From the NCBI GenBank assembly GCA_913051775.1, contig CAJXCL010000012.1, forward strand, positions 1 to 43,182: a stretch of 43,182 nt of DNA. Reading direction: 5' to 3'. The position numbers and the translations under genes are program-made. This document shows positions 20,645 through 40,938 of this stretch, one piece after another; position 1 is the first letter of the stretch; the number at the start of each line of letters is the position of its first letter. A model generated the notes under the pieces. It saw only the letters and a program-made list of their open reading frames with translations, had not been told where the DNA came from and ran no database searches. The stretch comes from an uncultured Nitrospirota bacterium (GTDB lineage: Bacteria > Nitrospinota > Nitrospinia > CAJXCL01).

Positions 20645-20896
20645 CTATCCACCTGATAAAGGAGGGAGGATAGCGATTTCATCATTTGGTTTTAAGATAG
20701 TATCCAGATTAGCAATTTCTTCGTTCACAGCAAATAGAAAAGAATGCGCTTCCAAAAATTTTGCCAGGATATTATTTTCTAATTTTAAACGATTAAGTAA
20801 AGACTGCAGAGTCACATCATCTTCCAACTCAAACTCTTCTTCATCTTTCCCTAATTTATCTTTAATTGACGCGAAATATAAAACTTTAACTTTCAC
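20645..20896 (-). CDS. moaD: MoaD/ThiS-family sulfur carrier, molybdopterin synthase small subunit
   Basis: MoaD carries a C-terminal thiocarboxylate that donates sulfur to make molybdopterin. The 83-aa protein has the ubiquitin-like beta-grasp layout: MKVKVLYFASIKDKLGKDEE, a central helix LQSLLNRLKLEN, the FAVNEEIANLD strand, then DEIAILPPLSGG. It ends exactly in the required Gly-Gly. GTG at 20896 is the start; no clear Shine-Dalgarno precedes it. No moaE, moeB or other moa gene is in the window, so the partner is elsewhere or it serves another sulfur pathway. A molybdoenzyme gene (AioA/IdrA type) lies 15 kb away, which makes a Moco role attractive but not proven. Confidence 0.85.
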   Translation of the reverse strand: MKVKVLYFASIKDKLGKDEEEFELEDDVTLQSLLNRLKLENNILAKFLEAHSFLFAVNEEIANLDTILKPNDEIAILPPLSGG

Positions 20897-21145: not shown

Positions 21146-22102
21146 CTAATTGATATCCGCCTTAATATCATTCAGGTTCAATTTGCTACCATCCTGGAAG
21201 TGATATGTATAACCTTTCTTTCTTGTACCTGTCATAGGTTTAGCTTTCCAACCTATTTTACCGCTCTCGGCATTTTTTATTACCCATTGCTCTATAACAA
21301 GGTTCTTTGTATAAGTTACTCCAGGGTCTTTTGTTAACCTGTCTTTTCTTTTCTCTATCACTTGATCCTTGTTGTCCGCATTTCTATACTTTTCAATGTT
21401 ATGAACCTTCTTTTTTCTTTCTTCAAAGTTGAATTTATACTTATCATCGAGAGATGGTTGAAAAGGTGTATTTTGATGTTCGTGACATCTTTTGCAGACA
21501 TTTCCCGTGTTATTATCATACCTTTTATTAAGTTTCTCTGCCTGCGCGGAGGTAAAGTCGCCCTCTGTGTTTTTCATAAGCACTCTAAACTGAGACCCTC
21601 CTCTAACGCTGTGACACATTTCACAACCTACCTGCTCAAGGCTGGGTTCTTCAGGATCTATGGCAGTCTTCTTCTTTATCTTTCCTTTTTTGGTCTTTGT
21701 GTCCTTAAACCTAAAACCACCACTCTGTCCGAAACCTGTAGTATGGCACCTCAGGCATAGAGGTTCTGACGTAAAATCAGCTTTTGTTACATCCAGTCCG
21801 TCTACATAGGCCTGGTCCCTGCCCCCAAACTTCACTAACTTTTCCTTAATTAATGCCTCTGCCTTCTTTTTTGCATCTGTCCTTTCCCCCGGTTTCAATA
21901 GGTTGTATGTTTTCCCATGGCCGGAGTTCATCCATGCTTGGTACCAAGGATCATGACAACTTCCATCACATTTAGCAGCACCCACAAATTTAGGGGTTTT
22001 GGGTATCTTTTTTTTCTTGGCTGCATCAGCAGTTAAAACAGTTAACGCCAAGCAAACAAAAGGAACAAAAATAAATAACAATAACATCCTTGCTCTTTTC
22101 AT
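21146..22102 (-). CDS. Periplasmic tetraheme cytochrome c (cytochrome c554-like)
   Basis: A 318-aa exported electron carrier. A signal peptide (~1-27, ending TADA) precedes FVGAAKCDGSCHDPWYQAW, which resembles the opening of the cytochrome c554 family but with three residues between the cysteines (C45-x3-C49-H50). Three canonical sites follow: CLRCH (116-120), CEMCH (160-164) and CKRCH (203-207). A lysine-rich tail reaches residue 318. The ribosome site AGGAG is well placed. It is the last gene of the long minus-strand respiratory block, 22 nt after a diheme lipoprotein, so it probably shuttles electrons to or from that complex. Whether the first motif binds heme is open. Confidence 0.85.
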   Translation of the reverse strand: MKRARMLLLFIFVPFVCLALTVLTADAAKKKKIPKTPKFVGAAKCDGSCHDPWYQAWMNSGHGKTYNLLKPGERTDAKKKAEALIKEKLVKFGGRDQAYVDGLDVTKADFTSEPLCLRCHTTGFGQSGGFRFKDTKTKKGKIKKKTAIDPEEPSLEQVGCEMCHSVRGGSQFRVLMKNTEGDFTSAQAEKLNKRYDNNTGNVCKRCHEHQNTPFQPSLDDKYKFNFEERKKKVHNIEKYRNADNKDQVIEKRKDRLTKDPGVTYTKNLVIEQWVIKNAESGKIGWKAKPMTGTRKKGYTYHFQDGSKLNLNDIKADIN

Positions 22103-22124
22103 AGATATCTCCTGTTTTAAGTGT

Positions 22125-22850
22125 CTATTTTAATGACTTCAGATAGTAAGTTATATTGAATGCTACTTTGTCTTTGAACCCGTAATTAGGCATTTTAACA
22201 TGTTTAATCATACGCTGAGGGTTTAAGAAAAACTTATACATCCAAGCGGGGTTAAGTCTCGCGCCTATATGTGTCAGATCCGGTCCGACTGTTCCCCCTT
22301 TTTCACCAATTTTGTGACAACCCGAGCATCCGGTTTTTTTATATGCTTTTTTGCCCATTAACATGGCTCTCTTATTCTTCTTTTTAAACTTCTCTGAGCC
22401 AGCTTTCATGCTCTTGCCCTCTAATCTCTCCGGTTTTATTTTCATCTCCTTTGTAAAATCAATATCTCCGGTGTCATGTGAATGAAGCGTTCTGATAAAG
22501 GCAATGATCTGCCAAATTTCTTTTTCAGAGAGAGTATACTTATAGAGGGGCATGCGGGTTGATTTTTCAATGGCGCCTCCTCCCAAACTTAGAACTTTAT
22601 AGAGGTCTTCATTCTTCTGTTTTCCAAGGTAGACTTCTTTGCTATCCGTCAGGTCTCTTGGTGTAGGGTCCAGGTTAAGCGAGTTAAAGCCGTCTCCCAT
22701 ACCTTTTTCCCCGTGGCAAGACGAGCAATAATATCCAAAAAGCTTGCGCCCTTGCCCAACGTTTTCATCTTCCAACAAAGCACACCCACCGGCAAACATT
22801 AATAAAAATATAGATGATATTCCAAATAAAATAATCTTATTTATTTTCAT
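22125..22850 (-). CDS. Diheme cytochrome c lipoprotein
   Basis: A 241-aa protein with a hydrophobic leader ending in the lipobox FAGGC (lipid cysteine C23), so it should be membrane-anchored on the periplasmic side. The first cytochrome c domain has CSSCH (42-46), GEKGMGDG and PTPRDLTD, with a candidate axial methionine in STRMPLYKYTLSEKE. The second has CSGCH (175-179), GPDLTHIG and a methionine near VKMPNYGF. It is a clear paralog of the gene at 32497-33198, sharing layout, the TLHxHD linker and MGKKxYKKxGCSGCH. It follows the EB_dh fusion gene by 12 nt. Probable role: electron carrier of the encoded complex. The heme count is read directly from the motifs. Confidence 0.88.
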   Translation of the reverse strand: MKINKIILFGISSIFLLMFAGGCALLEDENVGQGRKLFGYYCSSCHGEKGMGDGFNSLNLDPTPRDLTDSKEVYLGKQKNEDLYKVLSLGGGAIEKSTRMPLYKYTLSEKEIWQIIAFIRTLHSHDTGDIDFTKEMKIKPERLEGKSMKAGSEKFKKKNKRAMLMGKKAYKKTGCSGCHKIGEKGGTVGPDLTHIGARLNPAWMYKFFLNPQRMIKHVKMPNYGFKDKVAFNITYYLKSLK

Positions 22851-22862
22851 AAACCTGCCTCT

Positions 22863-24380
22863 TTATTTCTTTTTTCTAATCAATTTAATGAGAGAAAATT
22901 CAAACGCGGCAACAATAATAATTGCCAGTAAAGGATAATAGTAAACTGTCTTTGGAATTTGTGCTTCAAGGATAAGGAAATACCAGGCAGATATTGACCG
23001 CTTTGTCCCGGTCTCCTCATTGCTGCCCTCCCAGGCAGAGAAGGCGACAGGGATGAATTTTCCCGGCTCAAATTGGGCGTCCTTTTTATCATCTGTTTTC
23101 AAAGACCGTTTAATTAGAAGCCTGTATTCTCCATTATCGTATACAACAGCGCCCTTTGCATTCTGGTTACCTTCCTTCTGTGCAACCATTCTTTTCATTC
23201 CCGTGGCGTTTATCTCTGTAATACTCCCCTCTTTATGAGCGCTCCATTGCAATAAATAAGCAGGGTTTTCCGGATCACCATTAAGAAAATAGGGTTTTCG
23301 CCCATCCGGATTTTGTGGAAGTTGGAGAGCTATGGCGTCTTTAAAGGAATCATCATCAGTCAATTCAGATGGATCATGCCATATCAGTAAAAAAGCTATC
23401 TCATCCTGGTTGTAAATGGCTTTCATTTGCACAAAATCAATCTTCGGCTTAAACATCCGTGGATCAACAATAACCTGCCCTGCCATGGGATATTGACCCA
23501 TAGGAACACTATTCCATACTTCATCATCAGGGCCTTCCGGCAATTCCCCTTGAATGAGTTTTACTTGATAGGACGCCGTCGGTATTGGTTCTTCCGGAGA
23601 TGAAAGGGAAAGTACATAATTGGCCAAATGCCAGGTTTGTTCCTCATCCAGATCTTCAGCAAAAGAAGGCATTGGCGTTCCCTCAACACCTATTCTTATG
23701 GTATAGTAAATATCCCGTGGGCCAGTGCCTCTTTTGAATGTCCATCTTTTCGTAAGATCCCTTGGAAATATTGGGGTTTCCCAGTCTGTCTCCAGATCCA
23801 GGGCAAGATCCCCATTGCCTCTTCCAGCATCTCCATGGCACGAATTGCATTGGATACCATCCTTAGAAAATAATTCTTTCCCTTTTTCAATACTTTCCGG
23901 AGATGAAGGTATGGGCGTGCCCACTTTAATTGGCGCCGGGGCCTTACCTTCCTTAAACCTATCTGAAAAGGATTTAACATAATAGACCAGTCCCCATCTC
24001 ACATCACTAGGAAGTTCAGCCCATTCTCGCATAGAAGTGCCGGGAATCCCTCTGGTGATTACATTAAATATATCTTGATCTGTGGCAAGCTCGTCCCTTG
24101 CAGTAGTTTTTATCTTAAATACCCCTAAAGTGAAATCCCTGGGTTCCGGATATAATCTTTCGCTTGCCGGAGCTACTGCATCGCCTTTTTCCCCATGGCA
24201 ATTGATGCAATTTTTTTCATAAGTTTTCTTTCCTTTAGCTATAATTTCCGGGCTTTCGGCGACCACAGCTTCTTTCTTTTCTTCCTGAGCCAATACTTTA
24301 CCACCCATAAAAGCAAAGATGAATAGAGCAGAGATTACAATATTAAAGCATTTTCTTGTTAAACTTATTTTTTGTCGCAT
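22863..24380 (-). CDS. Diheme cytochrome c fused to an EB_dh-type heme b domain, C-terminal membrane anchor
   Basis: A 505-aa three-part protein. A signal peptide (~1-31) is followed by two cytochrome c modules with CINCH (58-62) and CNSCH (178-182). A beta-rich domain from about 265 to 470 resembles the ethylbenzene dehydrogenase/DMSO-reductase gamma-type heme-binding family (AIYNQDEIAFLLIWHD, EYRLLIKRSLKT, IPVAFSAWEGSN). One membrane helix (YYYPLLAIIIVAAFEFSLI) precedes a lysine tail. In NXR- or nitrate reductase-like enzymes such gamma subunits pass electrons between a molybdoenzyme and cytochrome c. A fusion with two c-type domains resembles proposed NxrC variants, but no NxrA/B is in the window. 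Its position inside the antiporter/bd-like block suggests it belongs to that complex. Confidence 0.82.
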   Translation of the reverse strand: MRQKISLTRKCFNIVISALFIFAFMGGKVLAQEEKKEAVVAESPEIIAKGKKTYEKNCINCHGEKGDAVAPASERLYPEPRDFTLGVFKIKTTARDELATDQDIFNVITRGIPGTSMREWAELPSDVRWGLVYYVKSFSDRFKEGKAPAPIKVGTPIPSSPESIEKGKELFSKDGIQCNSCHGDAGRGNGDLALDLETDWETPIFPRDLTKRWTFKRGTGPRDIYYTIRIGVEGTPMPSFAEDLDEEQTWHLANYVLSLSSPEEPIPTASYQVKLIQGELPEGPDDEVWNSVPMGQYPMAGQVIVDPRMFKPKIDFVQMKAIYNQDEIAFLLIWHDPSELTDDDSFKDAIALQLPQNPDGRKPYFLNGDPENPAYLLQWSAHKEGSITEINATGMKRMVAQKEGNQNAKGAVVYDNGEYRLLIKRSLKTDDKKDAQFEPGKFIPVAFSAWEGSNEETGTKRSISAWYFLILEAQIPKTVYYYPLLAIIIVAAFEFSLIKLIRKKK

Positions 24381-24444
24381 AACATCCCAAAAAAATATAA
24401 ATTATTCTTAACAGTAATCAATCACAAATTAAAATTTACTATAA

Positions 24445-25215
24445 CTATTCCCAGGTTCGGGGTTTGTTTCCAGTCGCATCATAAAGATAAAGGATTGCCT
24501 GCCATATCTCCTCATCAGTCAGCATATTTTTCCATATTGGCATTGCTGAATCCCATGGCGTTGCCTCAGGAGGCAGACCCGGGCCTCCGGTGGAAGCCCT
24601 CCAGAAAACAAAGGATTCCTGCAGCATACCAATTGTTGTTTCATCAAAAGTCGCGGGAGCGGGATTAAAGGCATGGGCAAAATGTCCTTTTCCATGCCAT
24701 TTATCACCATGGCAATAATGACAGTTTTCATAATATATACGCGCCCCTGCCTTGATGTGATTAGGAAGGTTTTCCTCATCATCTCGCAATGGATTGTAGA
24801 ACGAAGCCACTTCAGGGGGTGGCGCCGGATGGATAACCCGCATGGTAATAGGAGGTTCAAATCTAGGCATTTCCCCCTGATAAACCCCATAGGCGACATA
24901 AAGAGGAATAAAGACCAAAAACGCCCATCGGGCCACTATCCACGGCTGCGCACGATCCGTATCTCCGCGCAAAAACCAAAGGATCGGTTCTATAAACCCT
25001 ACTATTGTATGTTCATAAATAGAGACAGCCAACAGCACCCCGACTGTAACCGTAAACATGTACATGTACATTATACTTGCCGGCAGCGGTATACCGATAT
25101 AGGCGAAGAAAATTTTTAGGAACGCATAGATTCCGATCCAGACGATAGCCGCCTTGGCCGGTACCGGAATCCCTTTTTTTCTTTTACCCTGTAACTCTTC
25201 GTTCTTATCTGCCAT
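24445..25215 (-). CDS. Membrane-anchored monoheme cytochrome c with three N-terminal spans
   Basis: A 256-aa protein with a charged start (ADKNEELQGKRKK), three hydrophobic helices (about 21-41, 46-68 and 95-114) and a periplasmic cytochrome c domain. The heme site is CHYCH (165-169), and the candidate axial Met is in WDSAMPIWKN. The helices contain IYEHTIVGFIEPILW, so a histidine could ligate or contact a partner. No signal peptide cleavage is expected. It lies between the second antiporter subunit and the EB_dh fusion, with well-placed Shine-Dalgarno AAAGG. The likely role is to tether electron flow from soluble cytochromes into the membrane module. No named family was recognised; the heme call is direct. 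Confidence 0.82.
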   Translation of the reverse strand: MADKNEELQGKRKKGIPVPAKAAIVWIGIYAFLKIFFAYIGIPLPASIMYMYMFTVTVGVLLAVSIYEHTIVGFIEPILWFLRGDTDRAQPWIVARWAFLVFIPLYVAYGVYQGEMPRFEPPITMRVIHPAPPPEVASFYNPLRDDEENLPNHIKAGARIYYENCHYCHGDKWHGKGHFAHAFNPAPATFDETTIGMLQESFVFWRASTGGPGLPPEATPWDSAMPIWKNMLTDEEIWQAILYLYDATGNKPRTWE

Positions 25216-25263
25216 AAATAACCTTTTCTTAATAAATTTACCCTAAATAGCTGGGCTATAATT

Positions 25264-26841
25264 TTAGTAAATCCCCATGATTACAGAAATGATAGCGCCG
25301 CCGAGCAAAGGGATAACGATAAAAGCGGTTATGGGCGTCAACCGCTTGAGAACCCAGTTGAACACGTTAGCTCCCTTTCTGTAAAACCAATCTGTATCAA
25401 GATTGGTAGCCCTTATTTCCGATGGATATATTCCGGATAATATGAGGAGACAGAAAGCCAACGCGGAGAAAAAAAGCAACTGCAACATGTCCACAACATG
25501 GCCTGCCGTGTAGGGCACATAATCAACCGGATATGGAAGAATACTATAGAGTGTTCCGGGAAATATGCCTATAAAGATGCATAAAAAGGCAGCAATCCCC
25601 ATGGCGAGCAGCATATTAAGGGGAGGCTCTTTTGTCCTAATGCCTGAATCATGGGAAAAGAAAGCAAAGAAAGGGATCTTGATACCTGAGTGATGGAAAA
25701 CACCTGCTGAAGCAAATAGCAAAACAATCCACACAGCAACTATGCCCTCATGGCCTGACGCGCTCACAATCATAGATTTCGTTACAAAACCACTGGTAAA
25801 AGGAACTCCGGAAATGGATGCGGCGCCTATTATGCAAAATAAAGCGGTAAGGGGCATGGTTTTGTATAACCCCCCCAGGTCCGTGGCATTGATCTTTCCT
25901 GTCTGATGCAAAACAGCCCCCATAGACATAAAAAGTAAGGCTTTATACAGAATATGGGCAAATGCATGGCTAACAGTACCATTAAGAGACAACTCTGTCC
26001 CAATTCCGATGCCGACCACCATGAATCCAACCTGGTTAATAAGGCTGTAAGAAAGTACCCTACGCAGGTTATTTTCTATAACAGCATAAAAAATAGGGAA
26101 TGCCGTCATCATCGCTCCAATCCATATCAGCGCCTCGGTGCCGGGGAATGACCTTGCCAGCACGTATACTGCTGACTTGGTAGTAAACGCGCTTAAAAAT
26201 ACCGTCCCTGTAATGGTGGACTCCGGATAAGCGTCTGGAAGCCATGCATGGATAATGGGGAAAACGCAATTTACACCGAATCCGAGCAATATGAAATAAG
26301 ATCCCAATCCATTTAAGCCTATAACCCCAAACTCGATAGAACCCGTCTGATACACATGGATGATTATACCTATGAGAAGAGAAAGACCTCCAAAGAGATG
26401 GACCAAAAAATATCTCAATCCTGCTGTATAAGACGCCTCTGTGCCTCTCGCCCAGATAAGATATGTGGAAGCTATAGTCATAATCTCCCAGAATATGAAG
26501 AGAGAGAGCATGTCTCCCGCAAAAACAACACCCAAAGCACTTCCGGCATAAAGAAGGGCTGCAATATGCTGTCCATCATCTTTGACACGAAGAGCGTAAA
26601 GGGCTCCTATAAAAGATACAATCGTAAATATGTATCCAAAAACCATACTAAGCTTGTCAACCTTGCCAAAAATAATCTTATAGTCTAAAAAGTTTACGAT
26701 CCAGTATGTGCCTTCAGGCATAATAAAGAGATTTAATAACCCTATCGCTGGAACTATAAGTAGCCAATTCTGTTTTGCCTTTCCTTTTAGAAAAGGGACA
26801 AATAACGCGCCGATGATAAATATCACTGCAGGGTTAATCAT
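25264..26841 (-). CDS. Antiporter-like NADH dehydrogenase/Mrp subunit (ND4/NuoM/MrpD-like)
   Basis: A 525-aa polytopic protein of the proton_antipo_M family, which moves H+ or Na+ in complex I, Mrp antiporters and membrane-bound hydrogenases. Glutamate E119 (FIFWEIMTIAS) is the conserved TM5 acid, and K222 (SAFTTKSAVYVL) matches the TM8 lysine. The TM7 segment GFGVNCVFPIIHAWLPDAYP carries N191-C192 where most relatives have Lys. The start is ATG 26841, preceded by GGGGAGAGGA; a TTG at 26865 lies upstream without a better ribosome site. It overlaps the 84-aa gene by 8 nt, showing coupling. It sits in a bd-like oxidase cluster, so a complex I origin of the operon can be ruled out. Ion specificity is unknown. 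Confidence 0.87.
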   Translation of the reverse strand: MINPAVIFIIGALFVPFLKGKAKQNWLLIVPAIGLLNLFIMPEGTYWIVNFLDYKIIFGKVDKLSMVFGYIFTIVSFIGALYALRVKDDGQHIAALLYAGSALGVVFAGDMLSLFIFWEIMTIASTYLIWARGTEASYTAGLRYFLVHLFGGLSLLIGIIIHVYQTGSIEFGVIGLNGLGSYFILLGFGVNCVFPIIHAWLPDAYPESTITGTVFLSAFTTKSAVYVLARSFPGTEALIWIGAMMTAFPIFYAVIENNLRRVLSYSLINQVGFMVVGIGIGTELSLNGTVSHAFAHILYKALLFMSMGAVLHQTGKINATDLGGLYKTMPLTALFCIIGAASISGVPFTSGFVTKSMIVSASGHEGIVAVWIVLLFASAGVFHHSGIKIPFFAFFSHDSGIRTKEPPLNMLLAMGIAAFLCIFIGIFPGTLYSILPYPVDYVPYTAGHVVDMLQLLFFSALAFCLLILSGIYPSEIRATNLDTDWFYRKGANVFNWVLKRLTPITAFIVIPLLGGAIISVIMGIY

Positions 26842-27088
26842 AGTAATCCTCTCCCCTTTTAACAAATTTGCGCAATATATGCTTTGCTGCTAAAACGAGT
26901 AAAACGCAGGCAATAAATCCAAATGCCCCATAAAAGGATGGAAACTTTTCCCATGAAAAATCGGGATGTTTCAAGTGCATTAGAGTGAGAAAAAGGTCCA
27001 CAACAATGAGTACTACAAGGGATATATAAAAACCCATCAAGAATCTTTTTACATTTTTTGGTTTATCAAAAAAATGTTCTTTTTCCAT
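26834..27088 (-). CDS. Small two-span membrane protein of the respiratory block (84 aa)
   Basis: MEKEHFFDKPKNVKR precedes two hydrophobic helices, about 17-36 (GFYISLVVLIVVDLFLTL) and 50-68 (FYGAFGFIACVLLVLAAKHI). They are linked by a short loop with HLKHPDF and followed by a basic tail ending EDYYD. An AGGAGA ribosome site precedes the ATG by 6-7 nt. Its stop overlaps the next antiporter gene, and it begins 12 nt after the 45-aa gene. Translational coupling argues strongly that it is a real subunit. It is probably an assembly or small accessory subunit like those of oxidases. No family recognised. Confidence 0.8.
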   Translation of the reverse strand: MEKEHFFDKPKNVKRFLMGFYISLVVLIVVDLFLTLMHLKHPDFSWEKFPSFYGAFGFIACVLLVLAAKHILRKFVKRGEDYYD

Positions 27089-27100
27089 TTCAATCTCCTC

Positions 27101-27238
27101 TTATCCTAAGGCAGATCCTATGACAAAGATTATAAAAAGGTATGTAGCCGTAACTGATAAAACGATGTTGAAAATTTTGCCGTATCCAGGTTCAGGATCA
27201 TGTTTAAGCTCACTTATCTCTTTTATCTCTTCTTCCAT
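27101..27238 (-). CDS. Tiny single-pass membrane protein of the respiratory block (45 aa)
   Basis: A 45-aa frame that length filters would miss. ATG 27238 follows AGGAGGAGG, which lies inside the end of the upstream antiporter gene (stop ends at 27240), and TAA is at 27103-27101. The product has a charged N-terminal half (MEEEIKEISELKHDPEPG) and one hydrophobic helix (IVLSVTATYLFIIFVIGSAL). Very strong ribosome site, 1-nt spacing to the previous gene and 12 nt to the next make coding likely. It is most like a small structural subunit of a membrane complex. No named family was recognised. Confidence 0.78.
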   Translation of the reverse strand: MEEEIKEISELKHDPEPGYGKIFNIVLSVTATYLFIIFVIGSALG

Positions 27239-27239
27239 C

Positions 27240-28718
27240 TTAACCTCCTCCTGTTACACTTGGTAGAACCATTCTGGCAAGGTCAAGGAAGAACGATGGC
27301 GCTAAAAATAAAGCCACTACTGCTACAGCCGTAAGCATCAATGGCACTACCACAGTGGCCGGGGCCTCCTGTCTTTCAACCTTCTCGCCCGACGGTAAAT
27401 CCCTAAAATATGCCGCATACACGATTGGCAGAAAATAACACGCGTTCAGAATTGAGCTTGTGACAAGGACAGCTATCACCCAGTACTGTTCTGCTTCTAT
27501 TGAACCAAAGAGCAAATACCATTTGCTTATGAAGCCTGCAAAGGGTGGAAAGGCTATCAGGGAAAGGGAGCCTATGGTGAAGGCCGCCATTGTAAAGGGC
27601 ATCTTTTTCCCAATGCCATTCAGTTCACTCACCTTGGTCTTTCCCGACGCCACATAGATCGCCCCCGCGCAAAAGAACAGTGTAATCTTTGAAAAGGCAT
27701 GATTGGCGATGTGCATTACCCCGCCTGTTACACCGGCCGTTGTCAACAATGCCATCCCGAGGATGATATAAGAAAGTTGGCTTACTGTAGAATAGGCAAG
27801 CCTGGCCTTTAGGTTATCCTTCGTCAGGGCCACTACCGAAGCTGCGACTATCGTAAAGCATACAATGAAGATCACAGGACCTCCTACATCAAGTTGTTTT
27901 AGCGTCTCCAGCCCAAAGGTGTCTAAGCCCACGCGGAATAAAGTGAAGACACCTACCTTTACAACCGCAACGGCATGCAATAAAGCACTCACCGGGGTAG
28001 GAGCGATCATGGCAGCAGGCAGCCAAGGATGCAAAGGCATGATCGCCGCCTTAGCGCCAACACCCACAAGAAATAGAAAAAAGGTGATGGTGAGCAGGGT
28101 CTGATCCACGTCAGCGGGGAAGACACCGCCTTGTTTAAAATCCAGAGTATCGGAAAGACCGTAGCTCAAAAAGATCGCGAGCAAGAATAGTTTTGCCATC
28201 CCAAAGAGATAAAAAACATACTTGTTCGCCTTGTGATACGCCTCTTCGGTCTCTGAATGTGCCACCAAGGGATAAGCACAAACGCCGACAAGCTCGTAAG
28301 CGAGGTAAAGGGTCAGCAAATTGGCAGCAAAGGCCACCCCAATAGTGGCCGATAAAGTGAGCGCAAAACAGATATAGTAGCGGGTCTGCGCGTGCTCCTT
28401 GAGGGAGCGCATGTAGCCGATGGAGTAAAAGGTGGTCAGGATCCACAAAAAAGAGGCTGTGATAGCAAATAAAAGCCCCATGGCATCTACCTTAAACGCA
28501 ATGGAGACACCAGAAGTAATAGAAAATAAAGTATAGTTAAGTGTATTTCCGGCAAGTACCGGGGGAATCATGTGGAGAACAAAGAGAAACATCAGGGTCG
28601 CCGCCGCCACCGACCAGGCCTCACGGGCATTGGGAGAATTGCGGTTTATCGCGATGGGGACAACCGCGAATAAAGAGACGGCCACAGCTAAGAATGGCAT
28701 AACGGACTCAACTTGCAT
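27240..28718 (-). CDS. Antiporter-like NADH dehydrogenase/Mrp subunit (NuoL/MrpA-D-like)
   Basis: A 492-aa polytopic protein with the full antiporter core. The conserved TM5 glutamate is E142 (LTLYLAYELVGVCAYP). The TM7 lysine is K223 in GVGAKAAIMPLHPWLP. PTPVSALLHAVAVVKVGVF contains H249 and K254. FTIGSLSLIAFPPFAGFISKWYL is the late half-channel signature, with another lysine. It is thus a complete ion-translocating unit, unlike its sister at 25264, which lacks the TM7 lysine. The start at 28718 has GAGGAGG about 9 nt upstream and lies inside the end of the bd-like gene (11-nt overlap). It should pair with the second antiporter subunit. Whether it pumps ions from redox energy is inferred. 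Confidence 0.9.
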   Translation of the reverse strand: MQVESVMPFLAVAVSLFAVVPIAINRNSPNAREAWSVAAATLMFLFVLHMIPPVLAGNTLNYTLFSITSGVSIAFKVDAMGLLFAITASFLWILTTFYSIGYMRSLKEHAQTRYYICFALTLSATIGVAFAANLLTLYLAYELVGVCAYPLVAHSETEEAYHKANKYVFYLFGMAKLFLLAIFLSYGLSDTLDFKQGGVFPADVDQTLLTITFFLFLVGVGAKAAIMPLHPWLPAAMIAPTPVSALLHAVAVVKVGVFTLFRVGLDTFGLETLKQLDVGGPVIFIVCFTIVAASVVALTKDNLKARLAYSTVSQLSYIILGMALLTTAGVTGGVMHIANHAFSKITLFFCAGAIYVASGKTKVSELNGIGKKMPFTMAAFTIGSLSLIAFPPFAGFISKWYLLFGSIEAEQYWVIAVLVTSSILNACYFLPIVYAAYFRDLPSGEKVERQEAPATVVVPLMLTAVAVVALFLAPSFFLDLARMVLPSVTGGG

Positions 28719-31257
28719 CGCTGACAGCCTCCTCTACAGTTGGTGGTATAAGTTCCTTCTTCACTTCATCAGAATCTGAAGGCGCAACGGTTGCCGGTAC
28801 ATCCGGTTTCTTTGCTTCATCAGGTTTCGCAACAGCTGCCGGTATAGTTTTCGGTTTCACTTCCTCAGACGCTGTTTCCAGCGGAAGCGCCTTCACTTCC
28901 TCTACATCTACTGTGACCTCTCCCCCTAGACTCTGGATAAAAGACACAACCATATAGAGCTCTTGCATAGAAAGACCGATAGGAGGTTTGTTAATTACAG
29001 GCATCTCTGCCGCGAAGGGTCTTGGAATATTTCCAGTATAATCTCTATAAAAATAGTTTTTTGGATGGAGGAGTGAATCTATAATAAATTCTTTTGTCAG
29101 CCTTCCACCTATACCGCCCAGAATGGGAGCGCGAGCGCCATGAGTCGCTTCTATAGTATGGCAGAGCGAGCATTTACCCTTTCCAAAGAAAAGTTTCTTC
29201 CCCTGCTGAACCAGATCTGCCCTGCTATTGATCAGCGATAAATCGAATTTCTCCTTCTTAGGCGGATGAGATTCCAGCTGCGGGACCGAATAGGACATAT
29301 AGACGTAAGCCAGCAGAAGCACAACAGCTGTCCCAAGGACCTTCAAGTATTCGATATATCCTTTCGACTGCCGCCCGGACGCCGGTACAGCCGGCTTTTC
29401 CACAAGGGAGACAATCCAATGATATAAGGGCGTGAAAAAGAAGTACTGTGTGGAGAAGGCAGGTTGACGCGTAGTGTTGAAGGTAGTCCAAACGACTAAG
29501 CCCACCAGGAAAAAATACAGAGCTGTGCACACCGCCGCCATGGCGAGAGCCTGTCCCAAAGCAGGGGAAAAAGCATGCGGGGTGGTGTCCTCCAATACCC
29601 CATAGATATGCCAGTGGACACGAGAGGCCGAGCGGGCATATCCCATCATTGACATCGTGAAGACAATTGTTATGGCATTGATGACCAGAACATGCTGGGA
29701 TCTCACCGGCATCCTGCCCCAGATCATCGTAGAGGTTTCTTTGGCGCCCTTAAGCATTCTCGCCACAACCGGAGTGACCGTTATCAGCACAAACAGTACT
29801 ATTAGAACCTGCCATACGGAGAACTTATTTATCCTGATAATGGCCGGAACAAAGTAGCCCCAGACCCCAAGTACGATCAAAGCCACGAAGGCCACCGCAA
29901 AAAGCAATATAATTAAATAGTTGGCCACCTTCGCCCATCCCACCGTCGGCTGCTGCCCTGCGCGCCAGTAAATGAGAAAGCTTATAAAGGAAACCAAAAT
30001 CATCACATTCACAGCCGTCATTTTAGCCGACATAACCCCCAGGACACCCAGTATGGGATGATGCGCTCCGCCCATCGCACGGGCCTCCTCAAGGCTCGCC
30101 ACCAGACTGTGGGGTGTCAGCCATACCATAAAACACATCAAGATCACCACGAGCATCCCCATCATGGTCTTCATGTATTTTTCGGCACCCTTTTCCGTTC
30201 TGTAGGCCAGACCCAGCCAGAAGTAGTAATTGGCTCCCAGGAAAAGAACGCCAATCAGAACAGCCTGGATGATAAATAACCAGGATAGAAATCCGCCCAT
30301 CAAGGTGATCCCCATTTGTTGACTATAGATATAGATTTCTCGTGCCAACCAGTATCCGGCAAAGGGAAGCGTAAGCAAACCGAACATCCCGATAAAGTTT
30401 CCGATGTACCCCATCCAGTCGTAATGGGCCCGTTCTTCTTCTGTCTTGGCCCCCAGGTAACGGACGCCCGCATAAGCGCCGACAAGAAACCCGCCCAGTA
30501 CGATGTTGGCAACAAACCGGTGGATATTAACTGGCATCCAAGTCATGTTATTTGTTGCTGCCCAGGCCTTCTCCAAGGCGCTCGCACCCTCTGCTATAAC
30601 CACTGGGCTGGCCTGGAATGTGGCCCAGGAATTGGGCGTCGCCATGACGAGAAGCGCAACAAGGTTTAGCAGGAAGCCGTAAAACAGGTGCAGACCCTGC
30701 CGTTTTTTCAATTTTTCAAACCCGGACCAGTAGAGGTAGAGGATGACCATGGACGCGGCAAACAGGAACACATAAAAATAATAGGTGGGCCAAAAGACCT
30801 CCGTGATGTATCTCACGAGCTTGGGATAGAGAGCGAGGAGGAAAAGGAGAAGGAGGGACCCAAGAATCGCGGTCATTTCAAAAGCGGCCACGATCAGGTT
30901 CGTAAACTCATTCGCTAACTTGATATACCGCTCTTCCTTTCCCATGACCCCGATGATATGGCAGATCCAGGCAAAGACCGGCACCCCTAAAACAAACCCG
31001 CCAGCGAGAAGATGGAGCTGTGCGATTATCCAGATAAGATTGCGGCTCCCTATTATGGGAACTTCTCGGTAATCCACTTTTGCGGCCTTTTCTGCCGCTA
31101 AGAGTTCCGGAGCAAAAATGAGAACCGAAGAAAAGGCCACTACTATGAGAGCTAAGAACTTTAGGATATCTCGGTGCACAGGAGACTGTCCGAGAATTGT
31201 GATTCCGGACCTGATCCAAAGTCTTATATTGTTATGTACTCCTATAGGCCTTTCCAC
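28708..31257 (-). CDS. Cytochrome bd-like oxidase subunit fused to a cytochrome c domain
   Basis: An 849-aa protein from GTG 31257 (AGGAGGAAC five nt upstream). The membrane part has many spans. It begins with a CydA-like region in which H82 (IIAQLHLLAGGF), E127 (AAFEMTAILG) and H246 (MPVNIHRFVANIVLGG) stand where CydA has its heme ligands and conserved acid. No GRQPW Q-loop typical of quinol oxidases was seen. After the last spans a periplasmic cytochrome c domain follows, CSLCH at 696-700, with axial Met candidate in FAAEMPVINKPP. The tail is Pro/Ala/Glu-rich. Length exceeds CydA (about 520 aa), and no CydB follows. It resembles the bd-like oxidases reported in nitrite-oxidising Nitrospira and other Nitrospirota. 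The reduction partner (O2, or other) is inferred. Confidence 0.85.
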   Translation of the reverse strand: MERPIGVHNNIRLWIRSGITILGQSPVHRDILKFLALIVVAFSSVLIFAPELLAAEKAAKVDYREVPIIGSRNLIWIIAQLHLLAGGFVLGVPVFAWICHIIGVMGKEERYIKLANEFTNLIVAAFEMTAILGSLLLLFLLALYPKLVRYITEVFWPTYYFYVFLFAASMVILYLYWSGFEKLKKRQGLHLFYGFLLNLVALLVMATPNSWATFQASPVVIAEGASALEKAWAATNNMTWMPVNIHRFVANIVLGGFLVGAYAGVRYLGAKTEEERAHYDWMGYIGNFIGMFGLLTLPFAGYWLAREIYIYSQQMGITLMGGFLSWLFIIQAVLIGVLFLGANYYFWLGLAYRTEKGAEKYMKTMMGMLVVILMCFMVWLTPHSLVASLEEARAMGGAHHPILGVLGVMSAKMTAVNVMILVSFISFLIYWRAGQQPTVGWAKVANYLIILLFAVAFVALIVLGVWGYFVPAIIRINKFSVWQVLIVLFVLITVTPVVARMLKGAKETSTMIWGRMPVRSQHVLVINAITIVFTMSMMGYARSASRVHWHIYGVLEDTTPHAFSPALGQALAMAAVCTALYFFLVGLVVWTTFNTTRQPAFSTQYFFFTPLYHWIVSLVEKPAVPASGRQSKGYIEYLKVLGTAVVLLLAYVYMSYSVPQLESHPPKKEKFDLSLINSRADLVQQGKKLFFGKGKCSLCHTIEATHGARAPILGGIGGRLTKEFIIDSLLHPKNYFYRDYTGNIPRPFAAEMPVINKPPIGLSMQELYMVVSFIQSLGGEVTVDVEEVKALPLETASEEVKPKTIPAAVAKPDEAKKPDVPATVAPSDSDEVKKELIPPTVEEAVSDAS

Positions 31258-31312
31258 GTTCCTCCTACTTATAATCGATTACCACTAACTAGACTAGATG
31301 TTTTTTATTTTC

Positions 31313-31331
31313 GCACCGAAACATTCGGTGC
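31313..31331. promoter_or_regulatory. Perfect palindrome upstream of the bd-like gene
   Basis: GCACCGAA-ACA-TTCGGTGC, 8-bp arms with a 3-nt centre, lies about 56 nt upstream of the GTG of the bd-like gene in an AT-rich gap. It is G/C-rich and lacks a T-tract, so an operator for a dimeric regulator is likelier than a terminator. Binding protein unknown. Confidence 0.5.
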
Positions 31332-31376
31332 ACTATAAAAGCAATGACACAGTTCACTGCGCATTCACACTAAATA

Positions 31377-32408
31377 CTATTTAAACGATAACAGAAAAGG
31401 TTTTTTTACTCTGGTATGCTTCTGCAATCGGTCGTTATCCCATGTTGCCACACCAAAGTAATAAGACTTTCCTGTATCAAATTGAACGTCGTTTTTTGCG
31501 TCTCCGGTTTTAAGCTTTCTGCCAAATTCTAAAGTCCAGGCTGCCTCTTCCTCATCGTATTTTCCAGCGGCATTAACATCACCGCCGCTTCCTTTTGGTC
31601 TGGATAAAAGCCACCCCGGGATTGTATCTCCTTTTTTAATTTTGGACATATCCAGAGCAACTTCATCGCCTTTTATAAGGAAAGGTTTGTTCGGCCCGCC
31701 CTTAGGCATCCATTTTGGTTTATCACCCTCCTTGTTTTGTACGTAACCTAAAGCCTCGTCCCCTTTTTGCGCGGCGGCAACTCTCTTTGGCTTATCCGCC
31801 TCTTCCGCTACAGTTTGATTGGTAGAATCCTGATACCAGTCATCCGCGTATTTCAAGGGATCTGTGAGTGCGGATTTCCAGAGCCAGATATCGGTTTTCT
31901 GTCCTGAGTCGAGAAGATACATCTTATCTTCTTTCTCGGGTGAGTGGCAGATTGTAGCGCATCCCTTTTGCTCGAAGGAAAAATCCTTCCCTTTTATATT
32001 TTTCTTAATTTGAGCAGCGTCTGTTATAGGCCATTGGAAACCAAATCGGTCTGTATCCGCATCCCATGCCTCGTCCACTCTATCTTCCTTTTTAACAGTC
32101 CACTTGCTGCCGTCATAGACCCACTGATCCATATTTATGGAGTGATCCAAATCTCCAACCACCGTGATAAGAAAAAAAATCTCACTATCGGTATGAACGG
32201 ATTTTATAGATATCTCAGGACCGTCTTCAGCCTCAACGGCTACATTTTTAGCACTTTCCCACTGCGCGTCTCCACCACTACCGTCGATTTTTGGAGCAGC
32301 ACCTACCTTTGAAGATACCAAATCGTGAGTGTCTGCAGCGTAAAGCGGCTGCGCTAAAAAGCAAGCAATAATCGCAATAAAAAAAATAACCTTCATTGAA
32401 TTTCCCAT
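31377..32408 (-). CDS. Periplasmic EB_dh-type heme-binding protein with CX3CH motif
   Basis: A 343-aa exported protein from ATG 32408, with AGGAGG at the right distance; earlier in-frame starts lack it. A signal peptide (MKVIFFIAIIACFLAQPLYA, after MGNS) leads to a beta-sandwich of the ethylbenzene dehydrogenase gamma/DMSO-reductase-like heme family. DTDRFGFQWPI and KSYYFGVATWDNDR are typical. A C-x3-C-H stretch, CATICH, lies in the middle, with MYLLDSG downstream. In this family a heme b is held by Met/Lys or His. The extra C-x3-CH may bind a second heme c, which is not certain. It is encoded between the diheme cytochrome and the bd-like gene on one strand, so it probably acts as an electron input subunit. 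Confidence 0.8.
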   Translation of the reverse strand: MGNSMKVIFFIAIIACFLAQPLYAADTHDLVSSKVGAAPKIDGSGGDAQWESAKNVAVEAEDGPEISIKSVHTDSEIFFLITVVGDLDHSINMDQWVYDGSKWTVKKEDRVDEAWDADTDRFGFQWPITDAAQIKKNIKGKDFSFEQKGCATICHSPEKEDKMYLLDSGQKTDIWLWKSALTDPLKYADDWYQDSTNQTVAEEADKPKRVAAAQKGDEALGYVQNKEGDKPKWMPKGGPNKPFLIKGDEVALDMSKIKKGDTIPGWLLSRPKGSGGDVNAAGKYDEEEAAWTLEFGRKLKTGDAKNDVQFDTGKSYYFGVATWDNDRLQKHTRVKKPFLLSFK

Positions 32409-32496
32409 GAAACCAACCTCCTCATTCATTAAAGTTAAAGGCCAACACCATACCAAAATATTTTCAATTCCACAATAGTTTTTTTCTTTTTTTTTC

Positions 32497-33198
32497 TTAT
32501 TTCAAAGACGACAAATATTTAACCAGAATTACTCCAGTTCTTTCGTCTATATTAAATGCAGGCATTTGTGAGTCGGTGTTAACTGATAGAGGGTCTTTGA
32601 TAATCTGCCACATCTTATGGGCGTCATATTTCAATCCAACTGTTGATAAATCACCCCCTGAGGAACCGCCGTTTTCTTTTATCGCGTGACATCCCGAACA
32701 GCCATATTTTTTATAAACTTTTTTTCCCATCAGTTTATCCCTTTTACTGGTTTTGCCCGTTTCTATTTTATTGACAACAATACTTTCTTTTGTCCTTTTT
32801 GCTTTGGAAAAATCCAAAGGAGGCGCGTCGTGTTTATGAAGAGTCCTAATATAAGCTGCTACGGTGTGGATTTGATAGTCAGAAAGCGTAGATTTAAACT
32901 GTGGCATCAGGGCTGATTTATCTATCCCCAACCCTCCCTCTGCAATCGCTTGAATTAAATAAGTATTATCTTTCGTCTTCATGTAAGGCTTTTCAATGTC
33001 ACACAAATCCCTGGGCTGCGGATCCATTTCCGCGGCCTTAACATTTGGCCCATCACCCAGCCCCTTCTCCCCATGGCACTGCGCGCAATATCGCATAAAA
33101 AGTTGCTTCCCCATGGCTTCCTCCTTTTCACCGGCAAAAGAAAAAAGTGGTTGAAAAAGCGCCAGCATCAAAATAATAATTGAACTTAAAATTCTCAT
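32497..33198 (-). CDS. Diheme periplasmic cytochrome c (paralog of 22125-22850)
   Basis: A 233-aa protein from ATG 33198, preceded by AAGGAGGAGA. A signal peptide (~1-23, ending SFAGE) is followed by two cytochrome c domains. The first has CAQCH (38-42), GEKGLGDG, PQPRDLCD and axial Met candidate in ALMPQFKSTLS. The second has CSGCH (167-171), GGDLSTVG and Met in SQMPAFNID. Unlike its paralog it has no lipobox, so it is soluble or signal-anchored. Both share TLHxHD and the MGKKxYKKxG run before the second heme. It is the second gene in the block, about 135 nt after the HEAT-repeat gene. An electron-carrier role is inferred from motifs. Confidence 0.88.
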   Translation of the reverse strand: MRILSSIIILMLALFQPLFSFAGEKEEAMGKQLFMRYCAQCHGEKGLGDGPNVKAAEMDPQPRDLCDIEKPYMKTKDNTYLIQAIAEGGLGIDKSALMPQFKSTLSDYQIHTVAAYIRTLHKHDAPPLDFSKAKRTKESIVVNKIETGKTSKRDKLMGKKVYKKYGCSGCHAIKENGGSSGGDLSTVGLKYDAHKMWQIIKDPLSVNTDSQMPAFNIDERTGVILVKYLSSLK

Positions 33199-33333
33199 CC
33201 TGATCTCCTCCTTAAAAAACATTAATAAAATAATTTTTTAGTTGTTTGTTACTCTTTTTTTGTTTTAACGAATAACCACTAATTTATAACTTTAACACTC
33301 TGAAAACCTTCGTTTATCTCTATCCAAATTGTA

Positions 33334-35577
33334 CTATGCCGCTTTCCGATATATTTCCATCAATGCAGCCATAGCTATCCAATGATTTGCCTGCTGTTTG
33401 TTATTTTTTATGACGTCAATTAATTGGTCCACAATTTCTGGCTTCCCAATACTTTTCAAAGATTTAGCTATCTCATCCCGCAATTCCCCGAAATTCTCAT
33501 AATCATATAGTGAACCCAATAAAAGTTCTATTGCTTTACCCTCTTTAAACTTACCGAGATTTACAACAGCCTGCCTTCTCACCTCTCTTGATTCGTCCTT
33601 CAATGCTTCTAGAAATGTTTCTAAAGCTTTTGGAGTACCGATTTGTCCAAGAGAGCTAACTGCTGTTTCACGAATAAATGGATCTTCATCCTCTTTTAAA
33701 ATTTTACAAAGCGGCTCAATTGCATCTTCATTTTTAATTTTCCCCAGAGCTTCTAAAGCGGCAAGCCTTAGTTCTCGTTGTTCGTGATTAAGGAATGGCT
33801 CAATATTTATAAATAACTCTTTTTTCTGCATATTTCCAAGCGAGATAATCGCCTCTATTACTAAATCCAGATCATCGTTATCCAGTAGAGAAATTAAGAC
33901 ATCAATGGACTCGGGAATTGAAATATTTCCAAGAACCCTTGCCGCAAATGTTTTTTTATACTTTTCCTGAACAATTTTTATGCCCTCATCCTCTGCCTTA
34001 TCTTCAGCCACTTCAGCCTTTTCATCAGCGCAATTATCATCTATTGTCTGGTCTTTTTCTGCTATTTCTTTCTCCTCAGCAGCATGTTCATCTTTCTCCT
34101 CTTTAGAAGCAGGAAATATATTTGCCATAAGGGGATCTACTAATTTTTCATGCCTAACCTCAGGAATCACTTCACCATTGGTTTTAATGTCGGATTCTTT
34201 GTTTTCCCGGGTTTTATCTTTATCATTCTCAGAGTTTGTCTCGTTAGAAAGATGCTCTACTTGGTTTACCTCTTTTTTATTGGAATCGTTTTCATTTTGA
34301 ACTTCATCTTCATCTTCATCTTTTTTCTCTTCAGGTTCATCAAATACTGAAATAATAATGGATCTAGCTTCCGGCAACCCAACCTTTTCCAAGGCAACCA
34401 TAGCTGACAGAATAATCTCTTTTTCATTACTCTCAATACTCTTTTTTAAAACCTCCAGTATTTCAGGGCCTCCAATTCTTGTGACAGCATGAATTGCGGT
34501 AATACGGGTGTATGCTTCCTTTTTAATGTCTTCTATAATGATATAAAGCGGTTCTAATGCCTTTTTATCCCCAATTCTTCCTAAAGATCTAATGACTTCA
34601 CACTGAACAGATTCATCCGATTTTTTTAATAACTCCAGGAGAGGGTCAACCGCCTCACTGGTTCGCAAGCTTCCCAGAACTTCAGCGGCTTTTTTTCGTA
34701 CATTTCTAACAGGATCCTTTAGCATAGGAAGAAGATGCTCAATTACCCTGGGATTGTCAATTTGTGCAAACAAACCTACAACTTCAGCCCTCACCTCTTG
34801 ATCCTGATCCTTCAATAAGAGAGCAAGGGGAACAAGGATATTTTGAGGGTCCCCAATTTTTACCAGAGATCCGGCAGCGCTAATCCGTACATCTGCATTC
34901 TTATCAAGCAGCGTGTTCGTCAAGACCTCAACGGCCTTTGGGTGGTCTACATCTCCAAGAAGACCTGCAATGCGCTTTCGGAGGAGATCATCGGAATCCT
35001 TGAGTAATTTAATTAATATATCCACAGCCGCCTCATCTTTTATGCTGATAAGGGCGCGAAAAATATCATGGCTAATATCCTGGGCAAATTCATCTGTAAG
35101 ATATTTAACCAGAGGGTCTACGGCCTTTGGGTCCCCAATCCTCCCAAGCGCTCTAACTGCTTCAAGATGCACGTCCCATGACGGATCAAAATCCATTTCA
35201 TCTTCCAAATCCTCATCCGGTCGATACACAGCGTCGTCATCCTCTAGCATTTCAATTAACCGGTCTACTACCTTCTTATCGGTTCTGTCGCTAATCTGGC
35301 CCAAAGACCTGACAGCGTTAATAACAAGATCTCCATCTATGGCTTTAGTAACGTCTAACAGAGGCTCCAAGGCATCTTTATTCTGAATTTTACCGAGGAC
35401 TTCCGCGGCATCTATCCGCACATCCGGATCCGGATCATTTAAACAACCAAGCAGGTCTTTCATGGAAGAACAAACCCCAATCGTTCCAAGCGCCTGGATG
35501 GCCGCCATCCTGGTCATAGCAAGTTTGCCTTTCAGGCACAATGCAATAGCATCCGCAGCTTCTAGCTTTTTTGACAT
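33334..35577 (-). CDS. HEAT-repeat scaffold protein
   Basis: A 747-aa cytoplasmic protein (no signal) composed of tandem HEAT/PBS-lyase-like repeats of about 31 residues with A-V/A-x-x-L-G-x-I/L/N and D-x-x-V-R patterns (AVRSLGQI, ALRALGRI-like, AEVLGSL, RAVVNLGKF). There are about ten units before residue ~415 and five after ~540. They are separated by an acidic, lysine-rich low-complexity linker (EEKKDEDEDEVQ..., ~415-530). HEAT arrays are protein-binding scaffolds. The start is ATG 35577 rather than the adjacent ATG at 35580, because AGGAG is at proper distance from the second. It is the first gene of the respiratory block. HEAT proteins near cytochromes or oxidoreductases may help maturation or regulation; the partner is unknown. 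Confidence 0.88.
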   Translation of the reverse strand: MSKKLEAADAIALCLKGKLAMTRMAAIQALGTIGVCSSMKDLLGCLNDPDPDVRIDAAEVLGKIQNKDALEPLLDVTKAIDGDLVINAVRSLGQISDRTDKKVVDRLIEMLEDDDAVYRPDEDLEDEMDFDPSWDVHLEAVRALGRIGDPKAVDPLVKYLTDEFAQDISHDIFRALISIKDEAAVDILIKLLKDSDDLLRKRIAGLLGDVDHPKAVEVLTNTLLDKNADVRISAAGSLVKIGDPQNILVPLALLLKDQDQEVRAEVVGLFAQIDNPRVIEHLLPMLKDPVRNVRKKAAEVLGSLRTSEAVDPLLELLKKSDESVQCEVIRSLGRIGDKKALEPLYIIIEDIKKEAYTRITAIHAVTRIGGPEILEVLKKSIESNEKEIILSAMVALEKVGLPEARSIIISVFDEPEEKKDEDEDEVQNENDSNKKEVNQVEHLSNETNSENDKDKTRENKESDIKTNGEVIPEVRHEKLVDPLMANIFPASKEEKDEHAAEEKEIAEKDQTIDDNCADEKAEVAEDKAEDEGIKIVQEKYKKTFAARVLGNISIPESIDVLISLLDNDDLDLVIEAIISLGNMQKKELFINIEPFLNHEQRELRLAALEALGKIKNEDAIEPLCKILKEDEDPFIRETAVSSLGQIGTPKALETFLEALKDESREVRRQAVVNLGKFKEGKAIELLLGSLYDYENFGELRDEIAKSLKSIGKPEIVDQLIDVIKNNKQQANHWIAMAALMEIYRKAA

Positions 35578-35580
35578 CAT

Positions 35581-39065: not shown

Positions 39066-39087
39066 TTAATTACACCTCCTTTTTATT

Positions 39088-39627
39088 TTATAAGTTACTG
39101 TGTCGTCCGTAAATTAAACCCATCATGCCATAGGCATACACATCGTTTCCTTCAACCTCGAGCAAAATCTGCGAAATGCTTTCCGTGGAATGACCGCTGA
39201 TAACTATTCCATGCCTCGTTAAGTCAAAGGTGGTCTGATGATAAGGGCATGGGCCTACCGCTTTATCTGCTGCCTTGTAGCCTCCATCCAACATTTTGCC
39301 GCCCATGTGCTGACAGAAATTATTAAAAGCTACTACATCCTTAGCAGGACCTACTCCACCACCAGCCTCTGTGCCTAATTTAACAATAAAGCTGCCGGAG
39401 TATTTTTTGGTGTCCGGATATTTAAACTCAACAGGTTTCCCTGTTTTCAGACTGCTCAATGATGCTACTTTCTGCCTCGGGTAGCCGGTTGTTATTGCTT
39501 CAGCCTTTTTCGCTCCCATTCCGGGTATCCCCGAGAGAACAACAGTTGCCGTTGCAACACCGCTGGCAAGAAGAAACTGCCTACGATTTGAACATAGAGA
39601 AAAACATTTTTCCTCTTTCTTTTCCAT
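39088..39627 (-). CDS. idrB: Tat-exported Rieske [2Fe-2S] subunit, AioB/IdrB type
   Basis: A 179-aa electron-transfer subunit. The start is ATG 39627, six nt after AGGAGGTG; the GTG at 39636 lies inside the ribosome site. The Tat motif is SNRRQFLLASG with R15-R16, then a hydrophobic stretch, so the subunit is exported folded and can carry the catalytic subunit. The Rieske site has C105-Q-H107 and C127-P-Y-H130. The two extra cysteines that form the disulfide in classical Rieske proteins (after CxH and after CPx) are replaced by G110 and Y129. This absence is known in some AioB proteins. It would receive electrons or pass them between IdrA/AioA and cytochromes. It lies 22 nt before the catalytic subunit gene. 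Confidence 0.85.
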   Translation of the reverse strand: MEKKEEKCFSLCSNRRQFLLASGVATATVVLSGIPGMGAKKAEAITTGYPRQKVASLSSLKTGKPVEFKYPDTKKYSGSFIVKLGTEAGGGVGPAKDVVAFNNFCQHMGGKMLDGGYKAADKAVGPCPYHQTTFDLTRHGIVISGHSTESISQILLEVEGNDVYAYGMMGLIYGRHSNL

Positions 39628-39673
39628 GAATTTCACCTCCTGATTATTTTTTTATATTTATGTTGGCAACTAA

Positions 39674-40921: not shown

Positions 40922-40938
40922 AAATTTTTCTCCTCCTT

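Follow-up and report, generated by a model that had tools for sequence, protein, structure and literature searches.

The 43,182-nucleotide stretch analysed here (GenBank assembly GCA_913051775.1, contig CAJXCL010000012.1, from an uncultured Nitrospirota bacterium placed in the Nitrospinota by GTDB; referred to as the window) carries on its minus strand a conserved unit of eight genes at 22125–31257. The unit runs from a CydA-like protein fused to cytochrome c (CydA-c) to a diheme cytochrome c (cc241b) and includes two antiporter-type subunits. We consider it fairly probable that this core encodes a cytochrome c-oxidising O2 reductase of the bd superfamily (OR-N2 type) coupled to two ion-translocating subunits of the complex I/Mrp type.

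Gene organization and conservation of the core

The preliminary description of the window had claimed twelve successive minus-strand genes, and the listing of open reading frames (ORFs) contains all of them at 21146–35580, in the reading order HEAT, cc241a, EB359, CydA-c, antiP492, tm45, tm84, antiP533, TMc256, ccEB505, cc241b and c554. From CydA-c to c554 every gene overlaps the next or sits 1–64 nt from it: CydA-c/antiP492 and tm84/antiP533 overlap by 11 and 8 nt, antiP492/tm45 and tm45/tm84 are 1 and 12 nt apart, and the gaps following antiP533 in reading direction are 48, 64, 12 and 22 nt, the last one separating cc241b from c554. The upstream gaps are wider, with 119 nt (EB359), 88 nt (cc241a) and 111 nt (HEAT). 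The core genes, with lengths in amino acids (aa) and transmembrane segments (TM), are as follows.

28708–31257, minus: CydA-c, putative CydA-like O2-reductase subunit (OR-N2/NIDE0901-type) with C-terminal monoheme cytochrome c; 849 aa, CXXCH at residue 696 (Pfam, AlphaFold)
27240–28718, minus: antiP492, antiporter-type subunit 1, MrpD/NuoL-like; 492 aa, Proton_antipo_M 5e-58
27101–27238, minus: tm45, single-TM 45-aa protein with an EPxPGYxxIF-like motif; homologues at the same place elsewhere
26834–27088, minus: tm84, two-TM 84-aa protein between both antiporters; homologues in CydA-linked, complex I and Mrp clusters
25264–26841, minus: antiP533, antiporter-type subunit 2, MrpD-like, short C-terminal form; NCBIfam PRK12668 MrpD 3e-220
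24445–25215, minus: TMc256, three TM and a C-terminal monoheme cytochrome c; Pfam Cytochrome_CBB3
22863–24380, minus: ccEB505, diheme cytochrome c with EB_dh domain (NxrC-like, heme b) and C-terminal TM anchor; Pfam
22125–22850, minus: cc241b, diheme cytochrome c, final core gene; Pfam; follows TM-c/EB in L050–L053

For antiP533 the ATG at 26841 was chosen as start over the TTG at 26865, giving 525 aa. In Pfam searches CydA-c matched Cyt_bd_oxida_I (E 1e-9) and Cytochrom_C (E 2e-4), and Proton_antipo_M was found in both antiporters (1e-41 in antiP533). EB_dh was recognised in two proteins of the cluster, together with several c-type domains; ccEB505 also matched TIGR03477 (DMSO_red_II_gam) at 4e-33, which is under that model's cut-off. 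No Pfam family above the curated cut-off was obtained for tm45 and tm84, for which hydropathy indicates one and two TM, respectively.

Relatives were collected by scanning named genomes with a CydA alignment, a single-sequence CydA query having matched nothing, and 80 loci were annotated (our numbers: L for loci, G for genomes, G000 being the window genome). The records are mostly metagenome-assembled genomes, and the label of L050 (Gammaproteobacteria) may stem from misbinning or transfer. The order CydA-c, antiP492, tm45, (tm84), antiP533 recurs in five other genomes (L050, L051, L052, L053 and L166; no separate tm84 ORF is called in L166). The whole eight-gene core is present in the same order in L050 (titled Gammaproteobacteria), L051 (Nitrospirae HyVt-426), L052 (Nitrospiria, Hainich) and L053 (Nitrospira sp., Rifle), the TM-c and EB/c genes being merged into one ORF in L050 and L051. 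The window antiP492 is 76% identical to the CydA-linked copy of L052, and tm45 homologues of 41–42 aa occupy the equivalent position in L050–L053 and L166. In CydA-linked, complex I and Mrp clusters alike, a tm84 homologue sits between both MrpD-like subunits, and TMc256 is kept in CydA modules both with and without antiporters. In L122 (Omnitrophica), a short contig, both antiporters come after CydA-c. This recurrence of the core, with the 45-aa gene included, is far beyond chance. The preliminary description had made its case depend on the CydA-like, two antiporter, 45-aa and 84-aa genes staying together, and neighbourhood comparison of other genomes found them together with their order unchanged. 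The description had further included HEAT, the upstream EB_dh protein (EB359), the upstream diheme cytochrome c (cc241a) and c554 in the unit. These four are not conserved with the core and did not recur beside CydA in the other annotated loci; the real unit is therefore 22125–31257.

In a survey of 396 evenly drawn Nitrospirota genomes, 143 have a close CydA (E<1e-220). CydA is fused to cytochrome c without a stop in 13 loci, and an antiporter pair adjoins 12 of these. None of the approximately 70 split CydA loci inspected, including those of Nitrospira defluvii (L089) and N. moscoviensis (L094), has antiporters. The main CydA tree, made by a quick method, includes 12 CydA-c sequences from antiporter-linked loci, and these group together (SH-aLRT 94); hence the counts of fusions and antiporters do not represent independent events.

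The use of tm45 as an oxidase-only marker was rejected. A 37-aa homologue (60%) is located at 7782–7895 of L150 (G069, Scalindua) within an Mrp-like operon, and tm45 may therefore have arrived together with the two antiporters.

The CydA-like subunit

The AlphaFold model of CydA (pTM 0.74; 22 sequences) predicts a bd-superfamily fold for its core. Submitted to Foldseek against the PDB (E≤1e-3), the model returned solely cytochrome bd CydA chains (7oy2, 5doq, 6rko), and Pfam PF01654 is above cut-off in the sequence. There was no match to PF00115 (COX1) in CydA and no heme-copper oxidase (HCO) among the significant fold matches; the resemblance to HCOs is one of histidine pattern only. The histidine set comprises H82, H246, H383, H399, H400, H548 and H550. 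H82, H190, H246 and H550 are common to CydA and the OR-N1 paralogue; H383, H399, H400 and H548 are as in NIDE0901-type proteins and missing in OR-N1, H383 being less clean in a larger alignment. The tree places the window CydA with NIDE0901, apart from the OR-N1 paralogue. Judged by predicted fold, tree and histidine set, CydA-c belongs to the OR-N2 (NIDE0901-type) group, with names and membership rules as given in PMC10839748 and PMC12342949. According to PMC8026999, one Nitrospira variant carries all HCO-like heme and copper residues, and in the Nitrospinae form two of these positions hold Gln and Phe. The Q399/F548 pair of L035 fits the latter.

Residue 169 is S or T in exactly six clusters, all with tm45 and with the antiporters downstream of CydA (the window, L050–L053 and L166). 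It is E in nearly all other sequences and G in five upstream paralogue sequences. By motif we take E169 to be the equivalent of E107 of E. coli CydA; the equivalences to E99/E107, H19 and H186 do not derive from a computed alignment.

The GRQPW motif of the quinol site is absent from the window CydA and from all 44 relatives checked. This absence and the cytochrome c domain fused to CydA speak for cytochrome c rather than quinol as donor, as the preliminary description had it. The unusual CydA-like enzyme thus probably takes its electrons from cytochrome c, although the reaction itself is one that we infer.

The antiporter-type subunits

Both antiporter-type subunits retain the residues expected of a pump, namely E142, K223, H248, K304, H340, K344 and K399 in antiP492 and E119, K222 and K355 in antiP533. 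Single exceptions aside, the Glu, Lys and His residues of the proton path are kept in 12 and 10 CydA-linked copies. The window genome has two more copies of the antiP492–tm84–antiP533 cassette, one in the complex I operon L041 (61% and 71% identity to the window antiP492 and antiP533) and one in the Mrp-like operon L042 (56% and 65%), and operons of relatives show the same arrangement. In L041 (G000:C4:14000–33900) the place of NuoL is taken by two MrpD-like subunits that flank tm84; a further two antiporter-type subunits come after them, which makes four; this complex I resembles the rhizobial ‘green’ complex I.

In the antiP533 tree the CydA-linked copies occupy three supported places. The window and L050–L053 lie among Mrp copies, L122 groups with L056/L156/L157, and L054 stands beside the five-pump complex I (L158, L159). 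A single clade of CydA-linked antiP533 was rejected by the approximately unbiased (AU) test with p 3.8e-8 for the full alignment and 1.6e-52 for the core without the tail; for antiP492 a single clade was rejected weakly (p 0.033). According to these trees, antiporter 2 joined CydA at least twice, probably three times. Because the linked CydA-c proteins form one group while antiP533 is found in three places, the partnership with CydA-c either arose several times or repeatedly had its partner exchanged. Recruitment of the pair on several occasions and replacement of its second member both imply a maintained role beside CydA-c.

The C-terminal lateral arm and last TM of the distal MrpD-like subunit are missing in the window antiP533. 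Its tail measures 36 aa, and the linked copies end 16–42 aa past the alignment point that follows the DxDWFYRKG motif, whereas 17 complex I/Mrp copies extend 71–277 aa beyond that same point. All 14 CydA-linked antiP533 sequences, four added later included, stop no more than about 50 aa after the DxDW/Y motif. The long tail, with a hydrophobic segment near its end, can be read from its sequence as the HL-type lateral arm with the last TM. Its loss tracks linkage to CydA in three out of three independent pairs on the tree.

Oxygen reductases of the window genome

The window genome is 96% complete and contains no CydB. A COX1 match was rejected as an oxidase since the 262-aa protein covers only positions 4–157 of 436; it is encoded at L163 3872–4660 (minus; G000:C31) and consists of a CcoN-like N-terminal part and a C-terminal soluble domain, i.e. 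an incomplete oxidase. Three more CydA-like genes (L021, L022, L023) lie in modules without antiporters. With neither CydB nor a complete heme-copper oxidase, the CydA-like proteins are the only recognised O2-reductase candidates of this genome. An anammox identity of the genome's class was examined with the HZS_alpha family, which matched 3 of 60 relatives, in frames of about 1000 aa, and had no match in the window genome.

Neighbouring genes

The remaining four of the twelve genes are:

21146–22102, minus: c554-type cytochrome, 3 CXXCH, 22 nt past cc241b, outside the core; Cytochrome_C554 2e-14
31377–32408, minus: EB359, periplasmic heme-b-type protein of the EB_dh/DOMON type, outside the core; EB_dh 2e-23
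32497–33222, minus: cc241a, diheme cytochrome c, paralogue of cc241b, outside the core; CXXCH at 46 and 175, Cytc6/CcoP-type models
33334–35580, minus: HEAT-repeat protein, 748 aa, no TM by hydropathy, outside the core; NblB/CpcE-type HEAT models

Besides CydA-c the twelve genes encode six further cytochrome c or EB_dh proteins, which had been noted before but counted as five. A moaD gene (20645–20896, minus) follows the c554 gene at a distance of 249 nt, not far from the molybdoenzyme cluster. This cluster, upstream of the twelve genes at 36276–42099 (minus), encodes an AioA/IdrA-like molybdoenzyme, a Rieske subunit and two diheme proteins of the MauG/CCP type. The closest plasmid relatives are from Vibrio (52%) and Azonexus (49%), AioA proper being at about 25–29%, and these plasmid relatives share the gene order ccp-ccp-B-A. 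The label AioA (arsenite oxidase) was rejected in favour of Idr-like. By the rule of PMC8692401, this gene order indicates an iodate reductase (Idr) cluster and not an arsenite oxidase.

Proposed function and alternatives

In the mechanism we propose, the diheme c, EB_dh/c and TM-c proteins would relay electrons from periplasmic carriers to the fused cytochrome c domain of CydA-c, and the electrons would go on to the CydA hemes and O2. The redox cycle would drive the antiP492–tm84–antiP533 pair beside CydA, which would dispense with the C-terminal lateral arm of complex I and Mrp, and H+ (or Na+) would be pumped outward. Electron transfer from cytochrome c to O2 yields about 0.4–0.55 eV per electron, which suffices for the charge separation of the O2 chemistry and, in addition, for pumping roughly one ion per electron. 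An outward-pumping cytochrome c:O2 reductase is favoured because the genome has no CydB and no complete heme-copper oxidase, leaving the CydA-like proteins as the only candidates. The conserved set, the bd fold and the retained pump residues agree with the redox-driven ion pump of the preliminary description; the physical supercomplex and the pumping are what we infer from them.

Several points weigh against this interpretation. To our knowledge, no protein of the CydA-c family has been purified so far. The model confidences are moderate (pTM 0.74 and 0.70), and three pairs are insufficient for a significant sign test of tail loss (p 0.25). In L171 (G310), the exception among the 13 fused loci, three unrelated genes stand where sister clusters have the antiporters, possibly through secondary loss. 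L064, outside the 396-genome tally, is a second fused CydA-c without antiporters, and G008 (L024) has CydA-c with a single one; the pair is therefore not indispensable. L115, L169 and L170 carry a second antiporter of another family of about 600–630 aa (28–31% to antiP492), which, from the sequences, looks as if the partner had been swapped. The antiporter pair could also form a separate complex. Finally, the O2-reducing activity of OR-N enzymes is without experimental confirmation according to PMC10839748.

The same complex might operate in reverse, the motive force entering through the antiporters and driving uphill electron transfer from high-potential cytochrome c to quinone, or an electron bifurcation. 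Reverse flow has been proposed for TO_2 in PMC9040806, genes for a Rieske protein and a cytochrome b adjoin CydA in TO_2-like clusters (L054), and an autotroph living on a high-potential donor would require it. We regard it as unlikely for the window cluster, however, as Rieske and cytochrome b genes are absent among its twelve genes, CydA lacks the known quinol-site motif and no recognised quinone-binding module occurs in any of the eight core proteins. More doubtful still is that the antiporters, tm84 and tm45 are a small independent Na+/H+ antiporter or ion channel, e.g. for pH homeostasis, that is merely co-transcribed. MrpD-like proteins are known as secondary antiporter subunits, and the antiP533 of the window lineage is nested among Mrp copies in the tree. 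Yet no other Mrp subunit genes lie alongside, and the genome already has separate Mrp-like (L042) and complex I (L041) operons. Moreover, the linkage is specific to fused CydA-c and of repeated origin, and the arm is lost in CydA-linked copies only.

The least probable of the alternatives, in our view, is that the CydA-like protein is not a terminal oxidase but reduces another substrate (nitric oxide, peroxide) or acts as a cytochrome c:acceptor oxidoreductase. OR-N enzymes are not known to have been assayed, the glutamate equivalent to E. coli E107 (E169) is replaced by S/T in the window clade, and the cluster adjoins the Idr-like molybdoenzyme with its two peroxidases. On the other hand, the histidines noted as HCO-like in work on the Nitrospira oxidase (PMC8026999) appear to be in place, the genome is without a complete alternative O2 reductase, and the Nitrospira orthologue is the accepted candidate terminal oxidase (PMC12342949).

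Returning to the pumping O2 reductase, a more far-reaching statement can be made tentatively. On at least two and probably three occasions, complex I-type pump subunits may have been added to a bd-superfamily oxygen reductase with fused cytochrome c, the arm being lost each time. The result would be a third oxygen-reductase design next to the pumping heme-copper oxidases and the non-pumping bd oxidases, whose canonical bd proton-entry glutamate was dispensed with in one lineage. As far as we know, the known bd oxidases do not pump and the known pumping oxidases are heme-copper enzymes. If the core is one machine, it would represent a little-known design for an oxygen reductase that pumps protons, and would show that reactions other than quinone reduction or the oxidation of H2 or ferredoxin can power the antiporter module. 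This would have a direct bearing on the coupling of electron transfer to pumping in complex I, and the repeated loss of the lateral arm provides a testable statement on the purpose of that arm.

Comparison with known systems

Canonical cytochrome bd (CydAB) shares the CydA fold and two conserved heme histidines with the window protein, which differs in lacking CydB and the Q-loop motif and in having extra TM helices, the fused cytochrome c and antiporter neighbours. The Nitrospira OR-N2 CydA (NIDE0901-type, part of the putative CydAA') is closer: its CydA core is 59–60% identical, with the same histidine set, and its neighbours are likewise TM-c, EB_dh and diheme c (L089, L094). However, it is split from cytochrome c and has no adjoining antiporter genes. 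The comparative genome studies of OR-N oxidases, PMC10839748 and PMC12342949, describe no antiporters joined to these enzymes in the portions of text searched. The antiP492–tm84–antiP533 cassette is common to the window and to ‘green’ complex I, 2M complex I and Mrp; the window cluster, in contrast, has no NuoH/I/J/K, hydrogenase-like or other Mrp partner, and its antiP533 is without the C-terminal lateral arm.

The nearest published system is TO_2. PMC9040806 describes it as found in Ca. Manganitrophaceae alone, with a bd-like oxidase accompanied by a membrane cytochrome b and two MrpD-like subunits, and suggests that it may either build up or dissipate ion motive force. TO_2 and the window thus have in common a bd-like protein and two MrpD-like subunits in one cluster. 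Ten of our loci (L054, L056, L115, L156, L157, L167–L170 and L172) are likely TO_2, on the basis of that published description and of the five-pump complex I in two of the genomes. In these two, G065 and G064, the antiporters are upstream of CydA-c, and the complex I operons (L158 and L159, respectively) have five antiporter-type subunits, as in Complex_I_3 of Ca. Manganitrophaceae. The likely TO_2 loci share with the window the fused CydA-c and, unless contig or cluster is incomplete, also TM-c, EB/c and diheme c. They differ in having the antiporters upstream of CydA, then a Rieske protein and cytochrome b (downstream of CydA in L054, where this was checked), no tm45, and E169 kept. In the window type the antiporters are downstream, tm45 is present and residue 169 is S; neither ORFs nor Pfam or NCBIfam revealed a cytochrome b or Rieske gene at 21146–35580.

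Two-antiporter CydA-c clusters are not confined to Ca. Manganitrophaceae, being found in the window genome and in records titled Gammaproteobacteria, Omnitrophica and Nitrospiria. A cluster type thought unique to manganese-oxidising Nitrospirota hence extends to other lineages, and specificity to Mn(II) lithotrophy is therefore unlikely. The window cluster is a variant of TO_2, for which the basic idea has already been published, and one that is also found outside Ca. Manganitrophaceae.

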